A DNA stretch of 64,000 nucleotides. Origin: Faecalibacterium prausnitzii (GTDB taxonomy: Bacteria; Bacillota; Clostridia; Oscillospirales; Ruminococcaceae). A program made the position numbers and the translations under genes. Positions 10,792 to 45,370 of this stretch are shown piece by piece. The notes under the pieces are model-generated. The model was given only the letters and a program-made list of their open reading frames with translations. It had not been told where the DNA came from and searched no databases. The first letter of the stretch is position 1. The number at the start of each line of letters is the position of its first letter. The stretch is from positions 1,674,001 through 1,738,000 of the forward strand of contig NZ_CP065377.1 in NCBI RefSeq assembly GCF_019967995.1, read 5' to 3'.

Positions 10792-12351
10792 TTGAAACAC
10801 CGTTTCCGCCTGGCCGCCGCGGTTCTGACGGCCCTTCTATTCCTGACCCTGACCGGCTGCGGTTCAGGCTCCAACAGCTTTACCTGGTTCGTGGACACCA
10901 TCCCCGCGAACCTTGACCCGCAGGTGGCTTCGGCTGCGTCGGACGTCATCGCCTGCGAGAACCTTTACAGCGGCCTTGTCCGCAAAGACCCGGACGGCCA
11001 GCTGGAACCTGCCCTGTGCGAACGGTGGGAGGTCTCCGCCGACCGGAAGACCTATACCTTTTATCTGAAGGACGGCCTGACCTACACGGCTGCCAAGGGC
11101 ACGGCTGCAGACTGCGCCATCACGGCGGAGGATTTCGTCTTCGCCTTCCGGCGGATGTTCCGCGCTGCCACGAACTCCCCCTACGCCGTGGAGTTTTCGG
11201 CCCTTGAGAACAGCGCCGAAGTATTGGCCGGGCAATTGCCGGAAAGCGCCCTCGGTGTTTCGGCCAGCGGGCCGCTGACGCTGGTGTTCCGCCTGAGCAG
11301 CCCGGACGAGAATTTTCTCTCCAAGCTGACGCTGCCCGGCGCGATGCCCTGCGACGAGGCGTTTTTCAACTCCACCCGCGGCACCTACGGCCTCACCGCC
11401 AAGACCACCCTTTCCAGCGGGCCGTTCTACCTCTACAACTGGACGTCCGGCGGCTTGTTCCTGCGGCGGGAGCCTTCCGGCACCTGCATCGACAGCCTGC
11501 GCCTGGTCCAGAACACCAACAACGCCGACCAGTCGGCCATTGAGCTCATCAACAGCGAAAAGTGCTCGGCTGCGGTGGACGACACCGGCAGCACCACCTC
11601 GCTGTCCTCCATCTCCTACTCCGACACCACCTGGAGCCTGCTGTTCAACTGCAATACGATCTTTTCCTCCACCGAGCTGCGGCAGGCGCTGGCCGGGGTG
11701 GCGCGGGACGCCGCCGAGGTGCCCTCCACCGAGCTGTTTGCCACAGCGGACAGCCTCATCCCCGCCGGGCTGAATGTAGACGGCATGAACTACCGCGACA
11801 CCGTGGGAGACGTCTCCCCCGCCGCCGTGGATGTCAAGGCGCTCTACCTTGCCGCGCGGCAGGGCATGGCAAACTCCGACTTCAATAAAATCACCCTGAT
11901 GCTCCCCGCCGGGTGCGGCCTGAACGAGGCCGCCGAGACCATCAACGGGGCCTGGCAGAAGGAGCTTTCCCTCTTCTTCTCCATCGAGGAGGTGGACGAG
12001 GAGACCTTCCGCAAGCGCCTGGCCGAGGGAGATTATACCATCGCGCTGGCCCCCGTCAGCGCTGAGAGCGGCAGCGTATACAACACGCTGGCCCAGTTCA
12101 CCCCCGCAGGCGGCGGGCTGACCGGCTATTCCAACGCCTTGTACGCCACCCAGCTGGAAGCCAGCACCCATGCCAACGGTTCCACCCGCTGCCGCCTGCT
12201 GGGCGAATGCGAACGCCAGCTGCTCAGCGACTGCGTCGTGGTCCCCCTCTTCTCCCAGCAGAAGCGTCTGCTGATCGCTTCGGGCGTCAAAAACCTCATC
12301 TTTGACCCCTTTGGCCCGGTGCTCGACCTGACGTATGCCACAAAGGAATAA
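10792..12351 (+). CDS. Oligopeptide-type ABC transporter substrate-binding lipoprotein (family 5)
   Basis: A 519-residue extracytoplasmic binding protein. The start is a TTG eight bases after AAGGAG (10778-10783); the frame stays open far upstream, but only as antisense of murD. A signal peptide ends in the lipobox LTGC. Family SBP_bac_5 features follow: DTIPANLDPQVASAASD, the YTFYLKDGLTY region and FVFAFRRMFRA. It is orphan, with no permease or ATPase next to it, so it may serve a transporter encoded elsewhere. The peptide or other ligand is unknown. Confidence 0.85.
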   Translation: MKHRFRLAAAVLTALLFLTLTGCGSGSNSFTWFVDTIPANLDPQVASAASDVIACENLYSGLVRKDPDGQLEPALCERWEVSADRKTYTFYLKDGLTYTAAKGTAADCAITAEDFVFAFRRMFRAATNSPYAVEFSALENSAEVLAGQLPESALGVSASGPLTLVFRLSSPDENFLSKLTLPGAMPCDEAFFNSTRGTYGLTAKTTLSSGPFYLYNWTSGGLFLRREPSGTCIDSLRLVQNTNNADQSAIELINSEKCSAAVDDTGSTTSLSSISYSDTTWSLLFNCNTIFSSTELRQALAGVARDAAEVPSTELFATADSLIPAGLNVDGMNYRDTVGDVSPAAVDVKALYLAARQGMANSDFNKITLMLPAGCGLNEAAETINGAWQKELSLFFSIEEVDEETFRKRLAEGDYTIALAPVSAESGSVYNTLAQFTPAGGGLTGYSNALYATQLEASTHANGSTRCRLLGECERQLLSDCVVVPLFSQQKRLLIASGVKNLIFDPFGPVLDLTYATKE

Positions 12352-12356
12352 AAACG

Positions 12357-12391
12357 CAAGGCCCCCTGTGCGAACGGCACAGAGGGTCTTG
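12357..12391. terminator. Bidirectional terminator between binding protein and spoVM
   Basis: CAAGGCCCCCTGTGC pairs with GGCACAGAGGGTCTTG around a GAAC loop. T-rich sequence follows on the plus strand, and GCGTTTTTA follows on the minus strand. It closes both the lipoprotein gene and the long minus-strand operon ending in spoVM. Confidence 0.75.
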
Positions 12392-12399
12392 TTGTTTCT

Positions 12400-12474
12400 T
12401 CAGGTTTTGATGCCGAACAACCGGCGCAGGATCCCGCGCAGACACTTCGGGCTTTTGATGACGACGACCTGCAT
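12400..12474 (-). CDS. spoVM: SpoVM-like sporulation micropeptide (24 aa)
   Basis: A 24-codon reading frame, far below usual gene-calling limits. It begins MQVVVIKSPK and contains RGILRRLFGIK. SpoVM of Bacillus is a 26-residue amphipathic helix with the same skeleton: IK-x-PK near the start, then G-hydrophobic-hydrophobic-R and a hydrophobic-G end. It recognises the convex forespore membrane and tethers SpoIVA. Here KSPK keeps the Pro at position 9. Context is decisive: B. subtilis has prpC-prkC-rsgA-rpe-thiN-spoVM, and this gene sits 65 bp after thiN in the same order. GGCGGGAG lies just upstream of the ATG. The window also encodes spoIVA. Confidence 0.85.
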   Translation of the reverse strand: MQVVVIKSPKCLRGILRRLFGIKT

Positions 12475-12539
12475 CCAACTCCCGCCTTTCGTTGTGTGAT
12501 ACCACAGTATAAGCGGCAGCGGCGCAAAACGTGCATGGA

Positions 12540-13187
12540 TCAGCGCAGGATGGGCGTATCCGGCAGGGTCTCAACCACGACCAGCGCCCCCTTGCGGGTG
12601 GAGATGGTGATGCAATCCGAGCCTTCGGCGTACTCGTTGCTGACGCCCAGCGGATACCCTGCCGTGAGGACGGCATCCGTCAGCTCATAGTAGGAGCCGC
12701 GCTCACAGACGCCCTCGGCCCGGCCCTCCAGCGGGAAGACGGATACATAGAAGAACTCCGCCTTCGGGTAGGTGCGCTCCTCGCCGGGGCGGACGAAGGT
12801 GATGCGGCTGCGCTCATCTTGCAGCGTGGCGCGCACGCCCCGCTGCTCCAGCCCCAGACCAGTGCAGAGGTTCGCAAGGGTGTGTTCCAGCCGTCTGCCG
12901 CCCAGCGCGCCCAGCAGCAGCACCTCGGAGCAGCCTTTTTCGGAGGCAAGTTTCGCCGCATATTCGGTGTCGGTGTCGTCCTTGACATGGGGCAGGACGA
13001 TGACGTCATCCTGCTGCTCCGGGCAGGGCGCGGTGTCAAAGTCGCCGACGATGATGTCCGGTTTGCAGCCCAGCGGCGCACAGTTGCGGTAGCCCGCGTC
13101 GCAGGCGATGATGAGATCATCGGGCCGCAGCAGGCGCTTCAGTTCCGGCGAGACCGGGCAGGCAGATATGATCACACAGCGTGACAT
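12540..13187 (-). CDS. thiN: Thiamine pyrophosphokinase
   Basis: The 215-residue enzyme transfers pyrophosphate from ATP to thiamine. Family marks are IIACDAGYRN near residue 27, the conserved GDFDT (KPDIIVGDFDTAP), KDDTDTEYA (Asp-rich substrate site) and LGALGGRRLEHTLANL. The start at 13187 has GAGAGGA upstream; the frame continues upstream only through rsgA sequence. It lies between rsgA and spoVM in a conserved order, with 70 bp and a hairpin between it and rsgA. Confidence 0.93.
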   Translation of the reverse strand: MSRCVIISACPVSPELKRLLRPDDLIIACDAGYRNCAPLGCKPDIIVGDFDTAPCPEQQDDVIVLPHVKDDTDTEYAAKLASEKGCSEVLLLGALGGRRLEHTLANLCTGLGLEQRGVRATLQDERSRITFVRPGEERTYPKAEFFYVSVFPLEGRAEGVCERGSYYELTDAVLTAGYPLGVSNEYAEGSDCITISTRKGALVVVETLPDTPILR

Positions 13188-13257: not shown

Positions 13258-14136
13258 TCAGAACTTCGGCCGCTGCCAGTCCTTGACGTCCTTGACTTCG
13301 TCGTACATGGCGCAATAGCTGTCGTACCGGGTCTGGGAGAGCCGGCCCTCGGCCAGTGCCGCGCGGACGGCGCAGCCCTTTTCCGTGCGGTGGGAGCAGC
13401 CCGTGAACTGGCATGCACCAAGATACGGCCCGAACTCCGGGAACGCATGTTCCAGGTTCTCCTTCGGGATGAACCCGGCGCGGTTGGCTTCCAGGCTGGC
13501 GAAGCCGGGCGTGTCGGCGATGCGGCCGCCGAACGCCTCAAAGATGGTCACCTCGCGGGTAGTATGGCGGCCGCGGCCCAGTTTCTGGCTGATGGCGCTG
13601 GTCTCCCGCTCAGCCTCCGGCAGCAGGGCGTTCAGCAGCGTGGACTTGCCCACGCCGGAGTTGCCGCAGAAGGCGCAGAGCCGCCCGGCGATCCACTGCT
13701 TCACTTCGTCCAGACCCTCGCCGGTGTCGTAGTGGATGGCGATGAAGGGCAGGGTCGAACGCTCGTATGCCTTGCGGAGGAACTCCGCCTCGCCGAGGTC
13801 TGCCTTGGTGCAGACGATGACCGGCTGGACGCCCTTGTCCACCGCGATGGCCGACAGCTTATCCAGCACGAGGGTGCTGGGGGTGGGCTGGGTAGTGCTG
13901 GCCACGAGGAACAGCACATCCAGATTGGCCACCGGCGGGCGGACGAAGACGTTTTTGCGAGGCGCGATCTCCGCGATGACGGAAGCGCCGTTCTCGGTCT
14001 CCACCGTCACCTCGTCGCCCGCCACGGGGGTGATCTTCTGTTTGCGGAAGATGCCGCGCGGCTTGCACTCGATGATGCCCGCTTCGGTCCGGACGTAGTA
14101 GAAGCCGCCGATGCCTTTTACAATATAACCGTTCAT
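13258..14136 (-). CDS. rsgA: Ribosome small-subunit-dependent GTPase A
   Basis: The 292-residue circularly permuted GTPase acts in late 30S assembly. An N-terminal OB-fold is followed by G4 (VCTKADL), G1 (GNSGVGKSTLLNALL) and G3 (DTPGF), in the permuted order typical of RsgA. A C-terminal zinc motif contains GACQFTGCSHRTEKGCAV. It starts 10 bp after prkC. The kinase/phosphatase pair next to it is known in Bacillus to act on this GTPase (CpgA), which fits the shared operon. Confidence 0.95.
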   Translation of the reverse strand: MNGYIVKGIGGFYYVRTEAGIIECKPRGIFRKQKITPVAGDEVTVETENGASVIAEIAPRKNVFVRPPVANLDVLFLVASTTQPTPSTLVLDKLSAIAVDKGVQPVIVCTKADLGEAEFLRKAYERSTLPFIAIHYDTGEGLDEVKQWIAGRLCAFCGNSGVGKSTLLNALLPEAERETSAISQKLGRGRHTTREVTIFEAFGGRIADTPGFASLEANRAGFIPKENLEHAFPEFGPYLGACQFTGCSHRTEKGCAVRAALAEGRLSQTRYDSYCAMYDEVKDVKDWQRPKF

Positions 14137-14146
14137 GGCTCCTCCG

Positions 14147-16033
14147 TTACGACAGCAGCGCGCTCCACCAGTCGCTCAGGCTGGTGCCGGAGCTGGAACC
14201 GGAAGAGTCGCTGGAGGAGGAAGAGCTGCCGCCGCCCACAAGGCCGCTCCACCAGTCGCCGCCGGAGCTGCTGGCGCTGGAGCTGCCGCTCTCCGAGGTG
14301 CTGCCGGGCTCCTCGGCCGGGGTCTCCGGCACAGGTTCGGGCCCTGCGCTGACGGTCACGCTGACGCGGCTGTTCACCTTGACGGTGGAACCGGCGGCAG
14401 GGTTCTGCCCGATGATGGTACCGGCAGGCTTGTCGCTGTACTGCTCGGTGGTGCTGCCCAGGCCCAGCTTGTTCTGCACCAGCAGGGTGCGGGCATCGTT
14501 CACATTGGACAGGCCCACCAGAGACGGCACCTTGGCCGTGGTGCTGACCTGCGGGCGGCTCACATAGACCACAACGGTGGAGCCCACCGCCACCTGGCTG
14601 CCGGCGGCAGGGTCGGTGCGGATGATGGAGCCTGCCGCCACGGTGTCGTCCACGGCCTGGGTGATCAGCACCGAGACGCCGAGGCTCTTGAGCTGCTGTT
14701 CTCCATCGGCCTGCAGATAGTTGGTCACATCCGGCACGGTGACGTACTGGATGCCGAGGCTGATGGTCAGGGTCACGCTCTGCCCCTCGCGGACAGTGCG
14801 GCCCGCCACCGGCGACTGTCGGTAAACGTATCCGGCGGCATAGTCGTTGCTGTACGACTGCTCCCAATTGACGGTGATCTGGCCGGAGGAGACCTGCGGC
14901 TGGGCGTTCGCCTCATCCTGGGTCATGCCGCTGTAATCGGCCAGCACGATGTCGGCCTTTTCGCTCATCAGGGTGCTGGAATCGTTGAGGATGGTCCAGC
15001 ACAGCGCCATGCAGGCCAGCGCGAACGCAACGGTGATGCCGAACAGCACCGGCAGGAAGATGGGCTTTTTCTTTTTGCTTTTGCGGGTCTTTTTCGGTTC
15101 CGGGGCTTCTTTTTTGGTTTTCACGGGGTGCTCCACCACCTTTTCAGGAATTTCATCGGGGAGATAGGTGTAATTGAACACGATGGACGGGTCTTCCACG
15201 TAGGCGTTCAGTGCCCCCAGCATCTCGGCGGCGCTGGCGTAGCGGTTTTCGGGCCGCTTTGCCATGGCGCGTTCGGTGATCTCCACCAGGCCGTGGGGCA
15301 CGGTGGGGGCCAGCTCCTGCAGGCTCTTGGGCTTGTCGGTGATCTGCTTGATGGCCACCTCCACCACATCGTCGGCGTCAAACGGCAGATGCCCCGAAAG
15401 CATCTCGTACATCATGACGCCCACCGAATAGATGTCGCTGGTGAAATCGGTCTCGTCGCCCTTGGCCTGTTCCGGGCTGATATAATGGACGCTGCCCATC
15501 GCCTTGCCGCCGGAAAGCTGGTTCTCGGCGCGGGAGATGCGGGCAATGCCGAAGTCCATCATCCGCAGCTGGCCGTTGTCCAGCAGCATGATGTTCTGGG
15601 GCTTGATGTCCCGGTGCACCACGCCGTTGCGGTGGGCATGATCCAGTGCCTTGAGGATCTGGGAGATGAAATGCACCGTCTCCCGGCTGGTCAGCCTGCC
15701 GCCGCGCTCGTTGAGGTACTCCCGCAGCGTCATGCCGTCCACGTATTCCATCACGATATATTGCAGCTTCTCGCTGACCGAGACATCGTACACCTTGACG
15801 ATGTTGGGGTGGTTGAGCAGCGAGATGGCCTTGGATTCGTTCTTGAAGCGGCGGACGAGGTCGGGATCGTGCATGAGTTCCTGCCGCAGCACCTTGACGG
15901 CTACGACCGTGCCCTCCGGCACCGGCCCGCCCGGCCCCACGACCGCCTTGTAGACGTTGGCCATGCCGCCGGTGCCGATCAGCTCCCGGACGGTGTACAG
16001 GCCATCAAGGGTCTTGCCGATCAGATTATCCAT
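14147..16033 (-). CDS. prkC: PASTA-domain serine/threonine protein kinase
   Basis: The 628-residue membrane kinase has a Hanks-type catalytic domain (about 10-270: Gly-rich GTGGMANVYKA, Lys47, HRDIKPQN with Asp142, DFG Asp160). A cytoplasmic linker rich in K/E and one membrane helix follow (about 330-355). Outside there are about three PASTA repeats, which in the family bind muropeptides. The protein ends in an unusual Ser/Gly-rich tail with two DWWS motifs. PrkC signals cell-wall state and spore germination in Bacillus. It overlaps prpC, which encodes its phosphatase, by 8 bp. Confidence 0.95.
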   Translation of the reverse strand: MDNLIGKTLDGLYTVRELIGTGGMANVYKAVVGPGGPVPEGTVVAVKVLRQELMHDPDLVRRFKNESKAISLLNHPNIVKVYDVSVSEKLQYIVMEYVDGMTLREYLNERGGRLTSRETVHFISQILKALDHAHRNGVVHRDIKPQNIMLLDNGQLRMMDFGIARISRAENQLSGGKAMGSVHYISPEQAKGDETDFTSDIYSVGVMMYEMLSGHLPFDADDVVEVAIKQITDKPKSLQELAPTVPHGLVEITERAMAKRPENRYASAAEMLGALNAYVEDPSIVFNYTYLPDEIPEKVVEHPVKTKKEAPEPKKTRKSKKKKPIFLPVLFGITVAFALACMALCWTILNDSSTLMSEKADIVLADYSGMTQDEANAQPQVSSGQITVNWEQSYSNDYAAGYVYRQSPVAGRTVREGQSVTLTISLGIQYVTVPDVTNYLQADGEQQLKSLGVSVLITQAVDDTVAAGSIIRTDPAAGSQVAVGSTVVVYVSRPQVSTTAKVPSLVGLSNVNDARTLLVQNKLGLGSTTEQYSDKPAGTIIGQNPAAGSTVKVNSRVSVTVSAGPEPVPETPAEEPGSTSESGSSSASSSGGDWWSGLVGGGSSSSSSDSSGSSSGTSLSDWWSALLS

Positions 16034-16775
16034 GCTCCACCTCCGTCGGCTCCACGGCCAGCAGCAGCGCCGTGATGTTATCCGAGCCGCCGTGGGCGTT
16101 GGCTGCCTCGATAAGGCGGTCGGGCAGGTCGTAGAACGTCCCCTGCGCCAGCAGCTCTTCCATCTCCTCCACCGGCACCATGTTGGTCAGGCCGTCGGTG
16201 CAGAGCAGCAACCGGTCTTCCCGCTTGAGCTTCGCGGCGGTGAACTCCGGCTCCAGCCGGTAATCCACGCCCAGAGCCCTTGTAATGATGTTCTTCTGGG
16301 GGTGATGCTCGGCTTCCTCCTCGGTGATGGTGCCGCAGTCCACGAGTTCCTGCACGTAGGAGTGGTCGTGGGTGAGCTGGGTCAGCTTCCTGTCCCGGAT
16401 GAGGTAGGCGCGGGAGTCGCCTGCATGGCAGAGGTAGACATTGCCGCTACGCACCAGTGCGCAGACTGCCGTGGTGCCCATACCGGCCAGCGCTTCTTCA
16501 TGCGCGGCCTTCTGGAACACGAAGCGGTTGGCGTAGAGGAGTGCTTTTTTCAGAAACGGCTCCTCCTGCCCTGCCCCGCACTGGGCGTATTGCTCCTGAA
16601 AGAAATTCTCGATGACATTGCACGCCCCCTGCGAGGCTTCGCGGCCGCCCTTTGCGCCGCCCATGCCGTCGCAGACCAGCGCCCACACCGCGCCGCCGGG
16701 CAGCTCCCCGGCCCGATAATCGTCCTGGTTCTCCTGACGGACACGGCCGACATCTGTTTTTCCTGCAAGTTTCAT
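16026..16775 (-). CDS. prpC: PP2C-family protein phosphatase
   Basis: A 249-residue metal-dependent Ser/Thr phosphatase (Stp/PrpC). Metal-site motifs are RQENQDDY, VCDGMGG, GDSRAYL and SDNITALLL (as GGSDNITAL). It reverses phosphorylation by PrkC, whose gene start it overlaps. Length matches the family. It follows rlmN by 15 bp. Confidence 0.95.
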   Translation of the reverse strand: MKLAGKTDVGRVRQENQDDYRAGELPGGAVWALVCDGMGGAKGGREASQGACNVIENFFQEQYAQCGAGQEEPFLKKALLYANRFVFQKAAHEEALAGMGTTAVCALVRSGNVYLCHAGDSRAYLIRDRKLTQLTHDHSYVQELVDCGTITEEEAEHHPQKNIITRALGVDYRLEPEFTAAKLKREDRLLLCTDGLTNMVPVEEMEELLAQGTFYDLPDRLIEAANAHGGSDNITALLLAVEPTEVEHG

Positions 16776-40550: not shown

Positions 40551-41969
40551 TCATTTCAGGACTGCGACATTTTTGATGCCGTATCGTGCAAAAAGTTTCA
40601 GTGCTGCCGGGCCGATGCGTTCCCCGCTCACCACGATGGGGATCGCCGGCGGGCAGGAGACGGTGGGCATCGCGCAGATGCGGCCCAGCGCCGTTTCAGC
40701 GGGGATCAGCTCCTGCGGGGCGAACACCGCCTGCCGCACGGTGCAGACCGGCGCAGCCTCCGCCGCCAGTTCCGTGAAGACATCCGCCTCCGGTTCCGGC
40801 AGAACCGGGGCCGACGGCAGAGCCGCGCAGAGCCGTGCCACTGCCGCTGCCAGCCGCTCATAATCCTGCGCCGGGTTTTCGGGGGTGAACATCAGCACCA
40901 CATACCGGGGGTCGGCATATTCGCACTCGATGCGGTCCTGCCGCAGAGCCTCGGCCAGCGCGGTGCCGGTCATGCCCAGTGCCGCCGCATCCAGCGTGAG
41001 TTTGAGCGGCTCACGGGCGGGGGCGTCCACCGCCAGCGGGAGCGGACAGCCTGCCGCAGCGGCCTGCTCGTTCAGCACCCGGCGCATTCTGGTCAGCTGC
41101 CCGCAGCAGGAGTAGAGCCGCAGCGGATACCCCTCCGAAAGATACCGGTTGCACCGGTCGAGGGATTGCAGGATCAGATAAGACGGGCTTGTGGAGCCGA
41201 ACAGCGCCAGCGCATTGCGGACTGCCGTTTCCTCCTGCACGGGCGCTTTCGGCCCCAGATGCAGGTAGGCGCCGCCGGTGAGGACCGGCAGGGTCTTGTG
41301 CCCGGAATCGCAGCACATCGCCGCCCCCAATGCAATGGGGTGGCGGCTGCCGCCCACCAGAAAATTCAGGTAGGCACCGTGGGCATTGTCTACCAGCAGC
41401 GGCACACCGTGCGCATCGCAGACCTTTGCAAGGGCCGCGATGTCCTGCATCCCGCCGAGGTAGTCCGGGCTGGTGAGGTAGACGCCGAAGGGGGTTCTCC
41501 CCTGCCCGGCCAGCCGGTCCAGCGCGGCGGCAAGCTGAGCTTCGGTCACGGGGCAGCTGCACAGCGCCCCGGCCGCGTCCGGCGCAGGCCAGAGCCACTG
41601 GATGTCAAGATCCAGCAGCGCGGCGGCATAGAGCAGCGCTTTGTGGGCGTTGCGGGCCGCCAGAAGCACCGGGCGCTGGCCGGCGGGGGCCGCCTGCATC
41701 GCCAGGCAGAGCATGGCCCGGATGCACTGGGACGAGCCCTCGGTGCTGTAATAGGTATGGGCCGTGCCGAAGAGCCGAGTCGCGTTGGCCTCGCTCTGGG
41801 CGATGATGCCATCGGCCTCGTACAACTCATCCGCGCCCCGGATCTCGGTGATGTCCAGCCCTTCAAACCCCAGCAGGGCCTGCCCTTTATGGCCGGGCAT
41901 GTGAAGGCGGGACGTCCCGGACTTTGCGTAGTTCTGCACAAAGTCCACGATGGGCGTGGTCATGCTCAT
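40551..41969 (-). CDS. Orn/Lys/Arg decarboxylase-family PLP enzyme
   Basis: The 472-residue protein is of the short Firmicute group of the basic amino acid decarboxylase family (B. subtilis YaaO/SpeA-like). It opens with SRLHMPGHKG. PLP-site features are STEGSSQCIRAML, LLVDNAHGAYLNF and the Schiff-base Lys in CDSGHKTLPVLTGGAYLH. It probably makes agmatine, cadaverine or putrescine; which one is not clear. The start overlaps the stop of the radical-SAM gene by four bases (ATGA), linking it to the SCIFF locus. Confidence 0.88.
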   Translation of the reverse strand: MSMTTPIVDFVQNYAKSGTSRLHMPGHKGQALLGFEGLDITEIRGADELYEADGIIAQSEANATRLFGTAHTYYSTEGSSQCIRAMLCLAMQAAPAGQRPVLLAARNAHKALLYAAALLDLDIQWLWPAPDAAGALCSCPVTEAQLAAALDRLAGQGRTPFGVYLTSPDYLGGMQDIAALAKVCDAHGVPLLVDNAHGAYLNFLVGGSRHPIALGAAMCCDSGHKTLPVLTGGAYLHLGPKAPVQEETAVRNALALFGSTSPSYLILQSLDRCNRYLSEGYPLRLYSCCGQLTRMRRVLNEQAAAAGCPLPLAVDAPAREPLKLTLDAAALGMTGTALAEALRQDRIECEYADPRYVVLMFTPENPAQDYERLAAAVARLCAALPSAPVLPEPEADVFTELAAEAAPVCTVRQAVFAPQELIPAETALGRICAMPTVSCPPAIPIVVSGERIGPAALKLFARYGIKNVAVLK

Positions 41970-43417
41970 TCGCAGGCTTCGCCGTCCGCGCAGGCATTGC
42001 AGGTGCTGCCCAGTTCGATGGGCACCTCGATGCCCTGTGCGGCCAGCTCCTGATTCTTGGCCACCTGGATCATGATGGCGCACTCCATCCGCTTGCGGAA
42101 CAGCTCACAGCCGTACTCGTACACGCCGGTGATGCTGCCGGTGGCGTGGTATGCGTTGGCCGCACAGCCGCCGGAGCAGTAGAGCTTGGCCCAGCAATCC
42201 TTGCACTCCGGGCGGGCATAGGCGTTGCAGTGCTTGAACTCATCCCGCACGGCGGTGTTGGTGACGCCCTTCCAGATGTCGCCCATCCGGTACTTGGGGT
42301 CGCCGACGAACTGGTGGCAGGGGTACAAATCGCCCCAAGGGGTCACGGCCATGTACTCGGTGCCGGAGCCGCAGCCCGAAATGCGCTTGTAGATGCAGGG
42401 GCCGCCGGTCAGGTCGATCATGTAATGGTAGAAGGTAAAGCCGCGGCCCTCGCGGTCGCGCTTGAGCATCTCCTTGGCCAGGATCTCATACTGCTCCTTC
42501 AGGATGGGCAGGTCGGCCTCGGTCAGGGCGCTGGGGTCGTCCGGCTTGCAGACCACTGGCTCCATGCTCAGCTCGGTGAAGCCGAGGTCTGCCATGTGGA
42601 AGATGTCGTTGGTAAAGTCGGTGTTGAAGTGGGTGTAGGTGCCGCGCATATAGTAGCCCTTGTCGCCGCGCTTCCGGACGAACTCCTGGAACTTGGGCAC
42701 GATAGCGTCATAGCTGCCGTGGCCCGCGTAGTCCTTGCGGAAGCGGTCGTGGACCTCCTTGCGGCCATCGAGGCTCAGGACGACGTTGTGGCACTCCTTG
42801 TTGCAGAAGTCGATCACATCCTCGTCGATCAGCATCCCGTTGGTGGTCATGGTGAAGCGGAAGTTCTTGTTGTGGATCTTCTCCTGTTCGCGGCAGTAGG
42901 CCACCAGCTTCTTCACCATCTCAAAGTTCATCAGCGGCTCACCGCCGAAGAAATCGACTTCGAGGTTGCGGCGGGTGCCGGAGTTCTCGATGAGGAAATC
43001 CATGGCGCGCTTGCCCACCTCAAAGCTCATCAGCGCACGGTCGCCCTGATAGCGGCCCTGCGAGGCGAAGCAGTAGGAGCAGTTCAGGTTGCAGGTGTGA
43101 GCCACATGCAGGCAGAGCGCCTTGACCACGGTGTTGCGGTTCTTGAAGTCGAAGGCCATGTCGGCGTAGGTATCGGGGCTCCACAGCTTGCCCGCCTGTT
43201 CCAGCGCGGCCACATCCTCCAGGCACTGGCGCAGGTCGGCCTCGGTCACGTCGGGGCGGTCGCCGTACTTTTCGAGCATGGCCGCTACGATCGCATCGGC
43301 GGAACGCTCCTTGTACAGGGCGATAACGTCATACGCCACATCGTCCACCACATGCACCGAGCCGCTGCAGGTGTCCAGCACGATGTTATAGCCGTTCAAT
43401 TGATACTGATGTACCAT
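41966..43417 (-). CDS. SCIFF radical-SAM maturase (ranthipeptide thioether synthase)
   Basis: The 483-residue radical-SAM/SPASM enzyme has the cluster motif C-x3-C-x2-C at Cys109, Cys113 and Cys116 (HTCNLNCSYC), and VDFFGGEPLMNFE. The C-terminal SPASM cysteines (ECKDCWAKLYCSGGC and others) bind extra Fe-S clusters. An N-terminal RRE-like part (QYQLNGYNIVLD) binds the precursor. It should form sulfur-to-side-chain thioethers in the SCIFF peptide encoded 68 bp upstream. GGAG six bases before ATG 43417 decides the start; an ATG four codons earlier contains that site. Confidence 0.95.
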   Translation of the reverse strand: MVHQYQLNGYNIVLDTCSGSVHVVDDVAYDVIALYKERSADAIVAAMLEKYGDRPDVTEADLRQCLEDVAALEQAGKLWSPDTYADMAFDFKNRNTVVKALCLHVAHTCNLNCSYCFASQGRYQGDRALMSFEVGKRAMDFLIENSGTRRNLEVDFFGGEPLMNFEMVKKLVAYCREQEKIHNKNFRFTMTTNGMLIDEDVIDFCNKECHNVVLSLDGRKEVHDRFRKDYAGHGSYDAIVPKFQEFVRKRGDKGYYMRGTYTHFNTDFTNDIFHMADLGFTELSMEPVVCKPDDPSALTEADLPILKEQYEILAKEMLKRDREGRGFTFYHYMIDLTGGPCIYKRISGCGSGTEYMAVTPWGDLYPCHQFVGDPKYRMGDIWKGVTNTAVRDEFKHCNAYARPECKDCWAKLYCSGGCAANAYHATGSITGVYEYGCELFRKRMECAIMIQVAKNQELAAQGIEVPIELGSTCNACADGEACE

Positions 43418-43442
43418 TTTAGTCTCCATTCCATTGTTACAT

Positions 43443-43471
43443 AAAAAAATGCCGCCCGGCAAAGGCGGCAT
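43443..43471 (-). terminator. Terminator/attenuator between SCIFF peptide and maturase genes
   Basis: On the minus strand ATGCCGCC, a 7-nt loop, GGCGGCAT and T7. It should let the precursor peptide gene be transcribed in excess over the maturase. Confidence 0.85.
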
Positions 43472-43485
43472 CCGATTTGCAGAAA

Positions 43486-43632
43486 TTACTTGTTGCTGTT
43501 CTCGCACTTCTGGTTTGCCACGCCGCAGGAAGTCTTGCAAGCGGACTGGCAGGAAGTCTGGCACTCGCCGCAGCCACCGGTCACAACGCTCTTGGTCAGG
43601 TCACGAGTAGCGATCGTCTTGATACGTTCCAT
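43486..43632 (-). CDS. SCIFF precursor peptide (six cysteines in forty-five)
   Basis: The 48-residue peptide begins with a leader MERIKTIATRDL and carries six cysteines at 21, 24, 28, 32, 36 and 43 in the pattern GECQTSCQSACKTSCGVAN, the near-invariant SCIFF core. AGAGAGG lies before the ATG at 43632. Its biological role is unknown, though it is conserved across Clostridia. The next gene encodes its radical-SAM partner. Confidence 0.96.
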   Translation of the reverse strand: MERIKTIATRDLTKSVVTGGCGECQTSCQSACKTSCGVANQKCENSNK

Positions 43633-43764: not shown

Positions 43765-45261
43765 TCACAGCAAAATACAGATGAGGCCGCTGCATCCATC
43801 GTTGATGACTTTTTCCAGCGTATCCTGCAGGCGACCGCGGGCTTCCTGCGGCATGTGCAGCAGCTTGTTCTGCAAGCCCTCGTTGACCAGTTCATGCAGG
43901 CTCTTGCCGAAGATGTTGGATTCCCACAGCCGTTCCGGGTCGGACTCAAAGTCGCCCAGAAGGCTCTGCACCAGATCCTCGCTCTGCTTTTCGGTGCCCA
44001 CGATGGGGTTGATCTCGGTGTGGATCACGGCCTTGAGCATGTGGATGGAGGGGGCACTGGCTTCCAGACGGACACCGTACCGCCCGCCCTGCCGGATGAT
44101 CTCCGGTTCTTCGAGCGAAAGCTCGTCGATGGTGGGCATCACAATGCCGTATCCGGTGGCCTCCACCTGTTCCAGCGCACTGCGGATCTTTTCATATTCG
44201 CGCCTGGCTCTGGAAAGCTCAATGATGCAGGGCATCAGGCCCGCTTCATCGCCGATGGCAAGGCCGGTCTGCTCGCTGAGCACCCGGTAGAACACATCCG
44301 GCTTGAGCAGAACCGTCACCCGCACGATGCCCTCCGAGAGATCCATGCCGCTGAGGGTGGAGCGCTCCACCGAATCGCTGGCAAGGGCTCCGGCGCTGTT
44401 CTGGGCCGGGACATCTTTCATGCGGGAGATTTTCTCCGAAAAATCCAGCGCGGCTGTGTAGATCTCCGTTTGGAGCCAGTGGCCCCGGTCCAGCATGGTG
44501 ACCCAGCGCGGGATGGCAAAATCCAGCTCCCGCACCGGGAACTCGTAGAGCACCCGCCGCAGGATCTCGTGCAGGGCGGCGCGGTCCAGGTCGATGCAGC
44601 TCACAGGCAGCACACTGCGCCCATACGCCTGCTCCATCTGCGCCGCAAGGGCCTGCGTTTCCGGGGCGTCCGGGTGGGTGCTGTTGAGCAGGATGACAAA
44701 GGGCTTGCCCAGCGCTTCCAGCTCCTCCACGACCCGCTGTTCCGCGGGAAGATAGTTTTCCCGCGGGATCTCGCTGATGGTGCCGTCGGTGGTGACGACG
44801 ATGCCGATGGTGGAGTGATCCCGGATGACCTTGCGGGTGCCGGTCTCGGCGGCAAGGTCAAAGGGGATCTCTTCCTCAAACCAGGGGCTTTTGACCATGC
44901 GGGGCTTTTCGTTCTCCTCGTGGCCCATGGCCCCCTCCACCATATAGCCCACGCAGTCGATGAGGCGGATGCGGCACTCGCCGCCGCCTTCCAGCTGGAG
45001 CGGGACGGCGTGTTCCGGGATGAACTTCGGCTCGGTCGTCATGATGGTGCGCCCCGCCGCCGACTGGGGCAGTTCGTCCCGTGCACGGAGGCGGGCGTCG
45101 TCCTCCTCGATGGCAGGCAGCACCAGCTGCTCCATGAATTGCTTGATGAGGGTGCTCTTGCCGGTGCGCACCGGGCCCACCACTCCGATCAGGATCTCGC
45201 CGCCGGTGCGTGCACCGATCTCGCGGCAGACCGTGGCTTCCAAACGTTCCTGCTTTTCCAA
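43765..45261 (-). CDS. spoIVA: Stage IV sporulation protein A (spore coat morphogenetic ATPase)
   Basis: The 498-residue protein is full length for SpoIVA (492 in Bacillus). The N-terminal TRAFAC-type ATPase domain has Walker A VGPVRTGKST near residues 28-37, then TIMTTEPKFIPEHAV, RLIDCVGYMVEGAMGH and DHSTIGIVVTTDG. The C-terminal part ends in hydrophobic GLICILL. In spore-formers it polymerises on the forespore using ATP and is anchored by SpoVM. A SpoVM-like gene is found about 31 kb away in this window. No clear sigma-E promoter was found upstream. Confidence 0.95.
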   Translation of the reverse strand: MEKQERLEATVCREIGARTGGEILIGVVGPVRTGKSTLIKQFMEQLVLPAIEEDDARLRARDELPQSAAGRTIMTTEPKFIPEHAVPLQLEGGGECRIRLIDCVGYMVEGAMGHEENEKPRMVKSPWFEEEIPFDLAAETGTRKVIRDHSTIGIVVTTDGTISEIPRENYLPAEQRVVEELEALGKPFVILLNSTHPDAPETQALAAQMEQAYGRSVLPVSCIDLDRAALHEILRRVLYEFPVRELDFAIPRWVTMLDRGHWLQTEIYTAALDFSEKISRMKDVPAQNSAGALASDSVERSTLSGMDLSEGIVRVTVLLKPDVFYRVLSEQTGLAIGDEAGLMPCIIELSRARREYEKIRSALEQVEATGYGIVMPTIDELSLEEPEIIRQGGRYGVRLEASAPSIHMLKAVIHTEINPIVGTEKQSEDLVQSLLGDFESDPERLWESNIFGKSLHELVNEGLQNKLLHMPQEARGRLQDTLEKVINDGCSGLICILL

Positions 45262-45326
45262 AATGGTCTCCTCCTGTCCGCATCTGGCGTTCTCAGAGAC
45301 ACTATATTCTCAAAACGCAAAAATAG

Positions 45327-45370
45327 AACCCTCTCCCAGCGCACAAGGCTGACGGAGAGGGTTTCCTTTT
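45327..45370. terminator. Bidirectional terminator between rpiR-type gene and spoIVA
   Basis: AACCCTCTCC and GGAGAGGGTT flank a 17-nt loop. The plus-strand side is followed by a T-rich run and the minus-strand side by CTATTTTTG, closing the regulator transcript. Confidence 0.75.

Follow-up and report, generated by a model that had tools for sequence, protein, structure and literature searches.

The window, by which we mean the whole 64,000-nucleotide stretch of Faecalibacterium prausnitzii DNA that was analysed, contains a very short gene on its minus strand that we identify as spoVM. Specifically, positions 12474-12400 encode the peptide MQVVVIKSPKCLRGILRRLFGIKT in 24 codons that begin with ATG and end with TGA, and no such peptide is encoded by the plus strand of 12400-12474. 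The original prediction had placed an ATG-initiated frame of 24 codons at this site; that frame is borne out, and its strand, absent from the prediction, is the minus strand. The features of the locus are as follows.

12362..12386, minus strand: intrinsic terminator with a 10-bp stem and a T-rich tail, directly 3′ of spoVM
12400..12474, minus strand: spoVM, encoding a 24-residue SpoVM orthologue (stop codon counted in), assigned by family match and conservation
12479..12489, minus strand: Shine-Dalgarno-like sequence AAAGGCGGGAG, 4 nt upstream of the spoVM ATG
12506..12534, minus strand: sigma-E-like element, GCACGTT, 14 nt and CTTATACT, matching 10 of 14 consensus letters
12540..13187, minus strand: thiN, thiamine diphosphokinase (128.9 bits), the upstream neighbour of spoVM
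13258..14136, minus strand: rsgA (RsgA, 201.3 bits)
14147..16033, minus strand: prkC, PASTA kinase (495.8 bits)
16026..16775, minus strand: prpC, Stp1-type PP2C phosphatase (267.5 bits)

The scores for the PP2C phosphatase, the PASTA kinase, RsgA and the thiamine diphosphokinase each exceed their own cut-off, which upholds the proposed gene order prpC-prkC-rsgA-thiN. Only 65 nt separate thiN from spoVM, and this position directly behind thiN is that of spoVM in B. subtilis as well. Relatives of the ThiN protein lie in Faecalibacterium in 20 of 22 loci, the closest being from F. hattorii (89% identity), and a ThiN match is present within the fetched stretch at 36 of 55 spoVM loci of the family. 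On the other side of spoVM the arrangement differs from that of B. subtilis, in that the next gene is not rpmB but a convergent gene for a family 5 solute-binding protein (PF00496, 96 bits; window 10792-12351, plus strand). The terminator hairpin lies between these two genes, and the folding of 12350-12402 gives -25.5 kcal/mol (z -4.59).

Identity of the encoded peptide

The sole family match of the reading frame is to the NCBIfam model NF033436 (SpoVM_broad), with an E value of 7e-6 and 25.9 bits over profile positions 1-23 of 26. The “PF26” model named in the original prediction was not found; a Pfam search with the peptide returned zero matches even at E 10, and a scan of the window with Rfam at gathering cut-offs gave no family. 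When the whole genome was searched in six frames, this frame was the top SpoVM match (E 3.2e-4, against 0.31 for the runner-up). In addition, a search of solved structures returned a single match, weak (E 0.92) and ungapped over residues 2-21, to the B. subtilis SpoVM structure 2mvh. The two proteins belong to a like length class, 24 residues here and 26 in B. subtilis SpoVM (2mvh, NF033436), and can be aligned without gaps. They are identical at I6, K7, P9, K10, L12, G14, I15, R17 and G21; they differ in that the window peptide has Gln2 for Lys2 as well as Ser8, Cys11, Arg13 and Arg18, and its helix is more basic. A hydrophobic-moment test for an amphipathic helix was uninformative for the window peptide, since 489 of 5000 shuffles scored as high, and equally so for B. 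subtilis SpoVM itself (407 of 5000).

Because the family match, the ungapped match to 2mvh, the location of the gene directly after thiN and the orthologues found throughout the genus (19 of 31 above the cut-off) all point the same way, the proposal that this is a true SpoVM orthologue is supported. The 25.9 bits of the window frame miss the curated NF033436 score of 31, a cut-off that is a naming threshold and not a biological property. Twelve of the 31 genus genomes fall under it, including one (G026) in which the gene is truncated at a contig end. It is therefore plausible, as had been suggested, that standard annotation would miss this gene, and the NCBI SpoVM cut-off loses 12 of 31 members in one genus. 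The spoVM gene has been described as seldom recognised in annotation (Galperin 2012, PMC3533761). The main text of that paper does not name Faecalibacterium, and our literature search found no paper with both “Faecalibacterium” and “spoVM”.

Conservation and selection

A SpoVM match is present in all 31 Faecalibacterium genomes searched, with a best match of E 0.0123 or lower in each; that worst value belongs to the truncated G026 gene, and the residue counts cover the other 30 genomes. The absence of the frame from relatives, or stop codons within it, had been named as observations that would count against the gene; the frame exists in all 31 genomes and contains no internal stops. Across the family sample, 176 of 198 genomes, representing 89 of 95 genera, have a SpoVM match at E 0.05 or lower, and 148 genomes are above the cut-off.

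Conservation at the codon level had also been put forward as a check, and spoVM evolves as a coding gene does. A comparison of 27 distinct sequences across 22 codons gives a pN of 0.161 and a pS of 0.545 (ratio 0.30), the median pairwise ratio is 0.28 over 345 pairs (maximum 0.98), and the numbers of invariant columns at codon positions 1, 2 and 3 are 7, 16 and 1 of 22. The alternative frames contain stops in 21 (+2), 3 (+3), 1 (-1), 5 (-2) and 26 (-3) of 30 sequences, so that judged on stops alone some of them could be open, and it is the codon-position pattern that carries the coding argument. Purifying selection acts on this peptide. Open frames of 24 codons are common, and the supposition that this one arose by chance in an intergenic gap would have that in its favour; its peptide, place and codon pattern are nonetheless conserved. 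With the best SpoVM match of the genome, a presence in 31 of 31 genomes and a pN/pS of 0.30, we reject the chance frame, to which we attach next to no probability.

The residues that are conserved include some on which the function of SpoVM is known to depend. Val5, Ser8, Pro9, Gly14, Leu16, Phe20 and Gly21 are unchanged in 30 of 30 genus peptides. Pro9, required for curvature sensing, and Ile6, required for binding to SpoIVA (PMC5607322, PMC12004969), are both present in the window peptide, and Pro9 is the sole residue fully conserved across the SpoVM proteins of Bacilli and Clostridia compared in PMC5607322. In the genus, residue 6 is Ile in 24, Leu in 4 and Val in 2 of the 30 peptides. In the family sample, residue 9 is Pro in 74 of 75 peptides and Thr in one; that one match (G111:C43:95475-95549, locus L248) comes from a genome with no SASP.

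The partners SipL and SpoIVA

In C. difficile the base of the spore coat is made by the same trio of proteins, SpoVM, SipL and SpoIVA (PMC5607322, PMC6436350), and the genes for the two partners were found in every Faecalibacterium genome. Those of the window genome are as follows.

43765..45261, minus strand: spoIVA, with a TTG start (674.2 bits; cut-off 459.9)
45301..45328, minus strand: sigma-E-like element before spoIVA, TTCTATT, 13 nt and AATATAGT, matching 10 of 14 consensus letters
G000:C1:1655115-1656632 (L233:3116-4633), outside the window: sipL, with PF12673 at 57.8 bits (cut-off 23.6) and LysM at 21.9 bits (cut-off 20.9)

The distance between spoVM and spoIVA, predicted to be about 31 kb, measures 31.3 kb, and both genes are on the same strand. 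SpoIVA passes its cut-off in every one of the 31 genus genomes, and its main match is free of stops in each; in G025, which is 77% complete, two contigs each carry part of the gene, and the shorter part contains one TAG. A glycine stands seventh from the C-terminus in 30 of 30 SpoIVA proteins, that of the window included, at the place corresponding to Gly486 of B. subtilis SpoIVA, a residue that works with Ile6 of SpoVM (PMC5607322). Since a search of solved structures with SpoIVA found no relative by sequence, this equivalence rests on counting positions from the C-terminus. Directly behind spoIVA, the window encodes a radical SAM protein on its minus strand (41966-43564) that matches the SCIFF peptide maturase model with 774 bits.

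Many of the genomes have, between spoVM and spoIVA, a gene of about 506 codons with matches to PF12673 (SipL, SPOCS) and LysM, an SPOCS plus LysM architecture that is the one described for SipL of C. difficile (PMC6436350). Two such proteins were scanned, and the LysM match of one of them, at 19.0 bits, is just below the cut-off of 20.9. All 31 genus genomes encode SipL, without internal stops. The order spoVM-sipL-spoIVA is found in a row in 15 of the 31 genomes, 13 of them with short gaps, one (G016) with a gap of 472 nt and one (G020) in which the order spans a contig break. This differs from C. difficile, where spoVM lies close to rpmB and shares a transcript with a small, unrelated gene (PMC5607322). 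Elsewhere in the genus, only spoVM and sipL are adjacent (5/31), only sipL and spoIVA are (2/31), or neither pair is (9/31, among them the window genome); in two genomes of the last group, G002 and G013, the distance from spoVM to sipL is 2-3 kb. The titles returned by our literature search included none on a spoVM-sipL-spoIVA gene cluster.

A SpoIVA tree of 30 genomes, from which G025 is absent and to which three of the six outgroup loci tried contributed a row, suggests the direction of this change. The linked trio is found in all three outgroup genera and on the deepest Faecalibacterium branch (G018, G019, G020 and G026; loci L098, L109, L117 and L100), whereas the states in which spoIVA is detached lie within one derived clade of 14 genomes, the window genome included, with support of 89/90. 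Likewise, a family scan with a SipL model built from 17 sequences that had a strict start motif found sipL and spoIVA within the same stretch (up to 12 kb) as spoVM at 14 of 55 loci, in one case (L221) on the opposite strand, and the linkage thus predates the genus. That SpoVM, SipL and SpoIVA have all been retained despite their separation argues for a continued need for them.

Signals for expression

The sigma-E consensus consists of KMATATT and CATACANT, separated by 12-15 nt, and holds 14 scored letters. The elements before spoVM, within the 65-nt gap that follows thiN, and before spoIVA each score 10 against it. With this consensus, the mean best score upstream of spoVM is 10.4 (30 genomes), as against 8.15 (sd 0.15) in 60 shuffles; upstream of sipL it is 10.9 (28 of 31 genomes covered; shuffles 8.33, sd 0.17) and upstream of detached spoIVA 11.7 (14 genomes; shuffles 8.95, sd 0.23). 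These figures are indicative, given that first-order resampling produced the shuffles and that the genomes share ancestry. A spacing of 14 nt is found in 27/30, 22/28 and 12/14 of the elements before spoVM, sipL and detached spoIVA, respectively. Upstream of spoVM, the block GGAACATT is retained in 21 to 26 of 26 genomes per column, the 26 being those whose second block matched a regular expression; the other four have TTATACTGT at this place (the window, G008 and G003) or ATAGTATGG (G018). At the Shine-Dalgarno place an AAAGG block could be seen by eye in the aligned relatives. The promoter-like element suggests that spoVM may be expressed in the mother cell by a sigma-E-type factor.

Sporulation genes of the genus and the family

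Several further sporulation genes are kept across most of the genus. Spo0A is above its cut-off in 30 of 31 genomes, and one genome has, besides the full-length protein, a second match to the C-terminal part of Spo0A (G027:C1:2994927-2995229, 174 bits). SpoIID is found at 213 bits or more (213-243) in 28 of 31 genomes, with 8 above the cut-off of 234.75; of the remainder, G004 and G026 have weak matches (59-74 bits) and G010 has none. The species group that contains Faecalibacterium is said, in a passage of PMC7924749, to be without SpoIID, and the disagreement with our 28 of 31 perhaps reflects a difference of thresholds. SpoVAC matches are present in 28 of 31 genomes, one of them above the cut-off, and the G019 copy has an internal stop. 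In the window genome, SigG passes one model (NF006071, 391.8 against 372) and misses another (TIGR02850, 377.9 against 457), SigE (335.6/339), SigK-like (225.4/252) and SigF-like (202.1/311) matches are all below cut-off, and SpoIIGA is above the Pfam cut-off and below that of NCBIfam.

It is worth considering that SpoVM might be a real membrane-binding peptide that has been recruited to a role outside the spore, for example as a division-septum or stress-membrane factor. Such a role would suit the description of F. prausnitzii as non-spore-forming (PMC6295017), and C. difficile builds its spores largely without SpoVM, which is largely dispensable there (PMC5607322). It would leave it unexpected, however, that the same coat-base partners stand in a row with spoVM in 15 of 31 genomes, that sigma-E-like elements precede these genes and that spoIID is found in 28 of 31; we consider a non-spore role unlikely, and a place in the coat base the better reading.

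Recognisable SASPs are missing from this gene set. At E 0.01 or lower, alpha/beta-type SASPs (PF00269) were found in none of the 31 genus genomes; in the family sample the same search detected SASPs in 152 of 198. In the family sample, 144 genomes have SpoVM and SASP, 32 SpoVM only, 8 SASP only and 14 neither. No conserved small ORF that might replace the SASPs stood out, by eye, around the spoVA-gpr region of five genomes. The GPR protease is known for SASP degradation. It is present in 26 of 31 genomes, always above its cut-off and aligned to positions 2-229 of 306, though SASPs were found in none. The genomes in which GPR was not found include three of the four of the deepest Faecalibacterium branch (G018, G019 and G020). 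In the window genome gpr lies at G000:C1:277440-278075 (L240:7432-8214), with SpoIIP and SpoVAD nearby.

Residue 2 of SpoVM

The absence of SASPs coincides with a change in SpoVM itself. Residue 2 of the window peptide is Gln, not Lys, and 28 of the 30 genus peptides have this Gln, the other two having Lys. SASP-bearing members of the family likewise have SpoVM of the type MK[IV]VV.KSP[KR], but differ at this residue, with Lys2 in 56 of 56. Outside the genus, residue 2 in genomes without SASPs is Gln in 14 of 19 and Lys in 5. These counts come from 75 non-genus genomes of the family, namely 56 of the 144 with SpoVM and SASP and 19 of the 28 with SpoVM only. In an RsgA tree, for which 67 loci were supplied and gave 52 usable rows, the rows labelled Gln2 form one clade with a long stem and support of 100/100, the bootstrap being still unsettled; this clade really holds 14 Gln and 1 Lys, the latter being row L042, whose peptide begins MK. 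Because Gln2 and the loss of SASPs fall in one clade, the two may be a single event, and their correlation then has an n of roughly one. Lys2 is not universal among SpoVM proteins, but in B. subtilis SpoVM the substitution K2A blocks cortex production (PMC5607322), and Lys2-to-Gln is a natural variant at a residue important for cortex control in that species.

The absence of SASPs from 31 of 31 genomes and the loss of Lys2 might be taken to mean that SpoVM is here a decaying relic, a peptide that drifts in a lineage that no longer sporulates. The family scores lean in the same direction: in the derived clade of 14 genomes to which the window belongs, SpoVM scores 20-27 bits in ten and 32.8 in four, below the 40 bits or more that many family members reach. 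A drifting peptide is nonetheless difficult to reconcile with a frame that is open in all 30 peptides free of contig-end cuts, with third positions that vary freely at a pN/pS of 0.30, or with SipL that is stop-free and SpoIVA that is above its cut-off in 31 of 31 genomes even though the genes have separated in the window's clade. We regard decay as quite unlikely, and continue with a SpoVM that is probably maintained for the coat base.

Discussion

The reading that we favour with considerable confidence is that positions 12474-12400 encode a SpoVM orthologue that likely inserts in the convex outer forespore membrane and would recruit SpoIVA, with SipL following by way of SpoIVA, to found the base of a coat. 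In such a scheme the peptide would be made in the mother cell and would sit in the outer forespore membrane, with its convex face preferred by way of the Pro9 kink. There it would recruit and hold the ATPase SpoIVA, which would polymerise and bind SipL to give the spore-coat base. From the biology of SpoVM elsewhere we infer that curvature sensing and SpoIVA binding may operate in Faecalibacterium as well; the host may also complete a spore of some kind. The spoVM gene itself is of a known kind; what stands out is its setting, a coat-base module under selection in a lineage that has no recognisable SASPs and is called non-sporing.

It is informative to consider what this module might build. 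Given that the genus has no recognisable SASPs and has Gln2 in 28 of 30 peptides, the structure probably differs from a standard heat-resistant spore. The literature on the species is divided: F. prausnitzii is described as non-spore-forming in PMC6295017, the review PMC8953710 mentions it in passing as a spore-former, and the clade study PMC9676633 has sporulation-related genes among its F. prausnitzii clade markers. The loss of sporulation in gut Firmicutes is treated in PMC8340488. That spoVM, SipL and SpoIVA are found in 31 of 31 genomes, though the species is called non-sporing, raises the possibility that an atypical spore programme lies hidden in this lineage. A more specific proposal, which we offer tentatively and hold to be rather doubtful, is that Faecalibacterium and its sister genera undergo a cryptic sporulation, in which an engulfed forespore is coated by way of SpoVM, SipL and SpoIVA without SASP packing and Gln2 uncouples the coat from the cortex checkpoint.

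Since F. prausnitzii is called non-spore-forming, the spread of this oxygen-sensitive species between hosts stays a question. The presence of the coat-base module, Spo0A and engulfment genes without SASPs makes it testable whether a forespore is formed, and of what kind. If cryptic sporulation does occur, it would yield a coated cell that is not fully dormant, a transmission form that tests by heat or ethanol would overlook, and this form would belong to one of the commonest bacteria of the human gut, of which F. prausnitzii makes up as much as 15% (PMC6295017).
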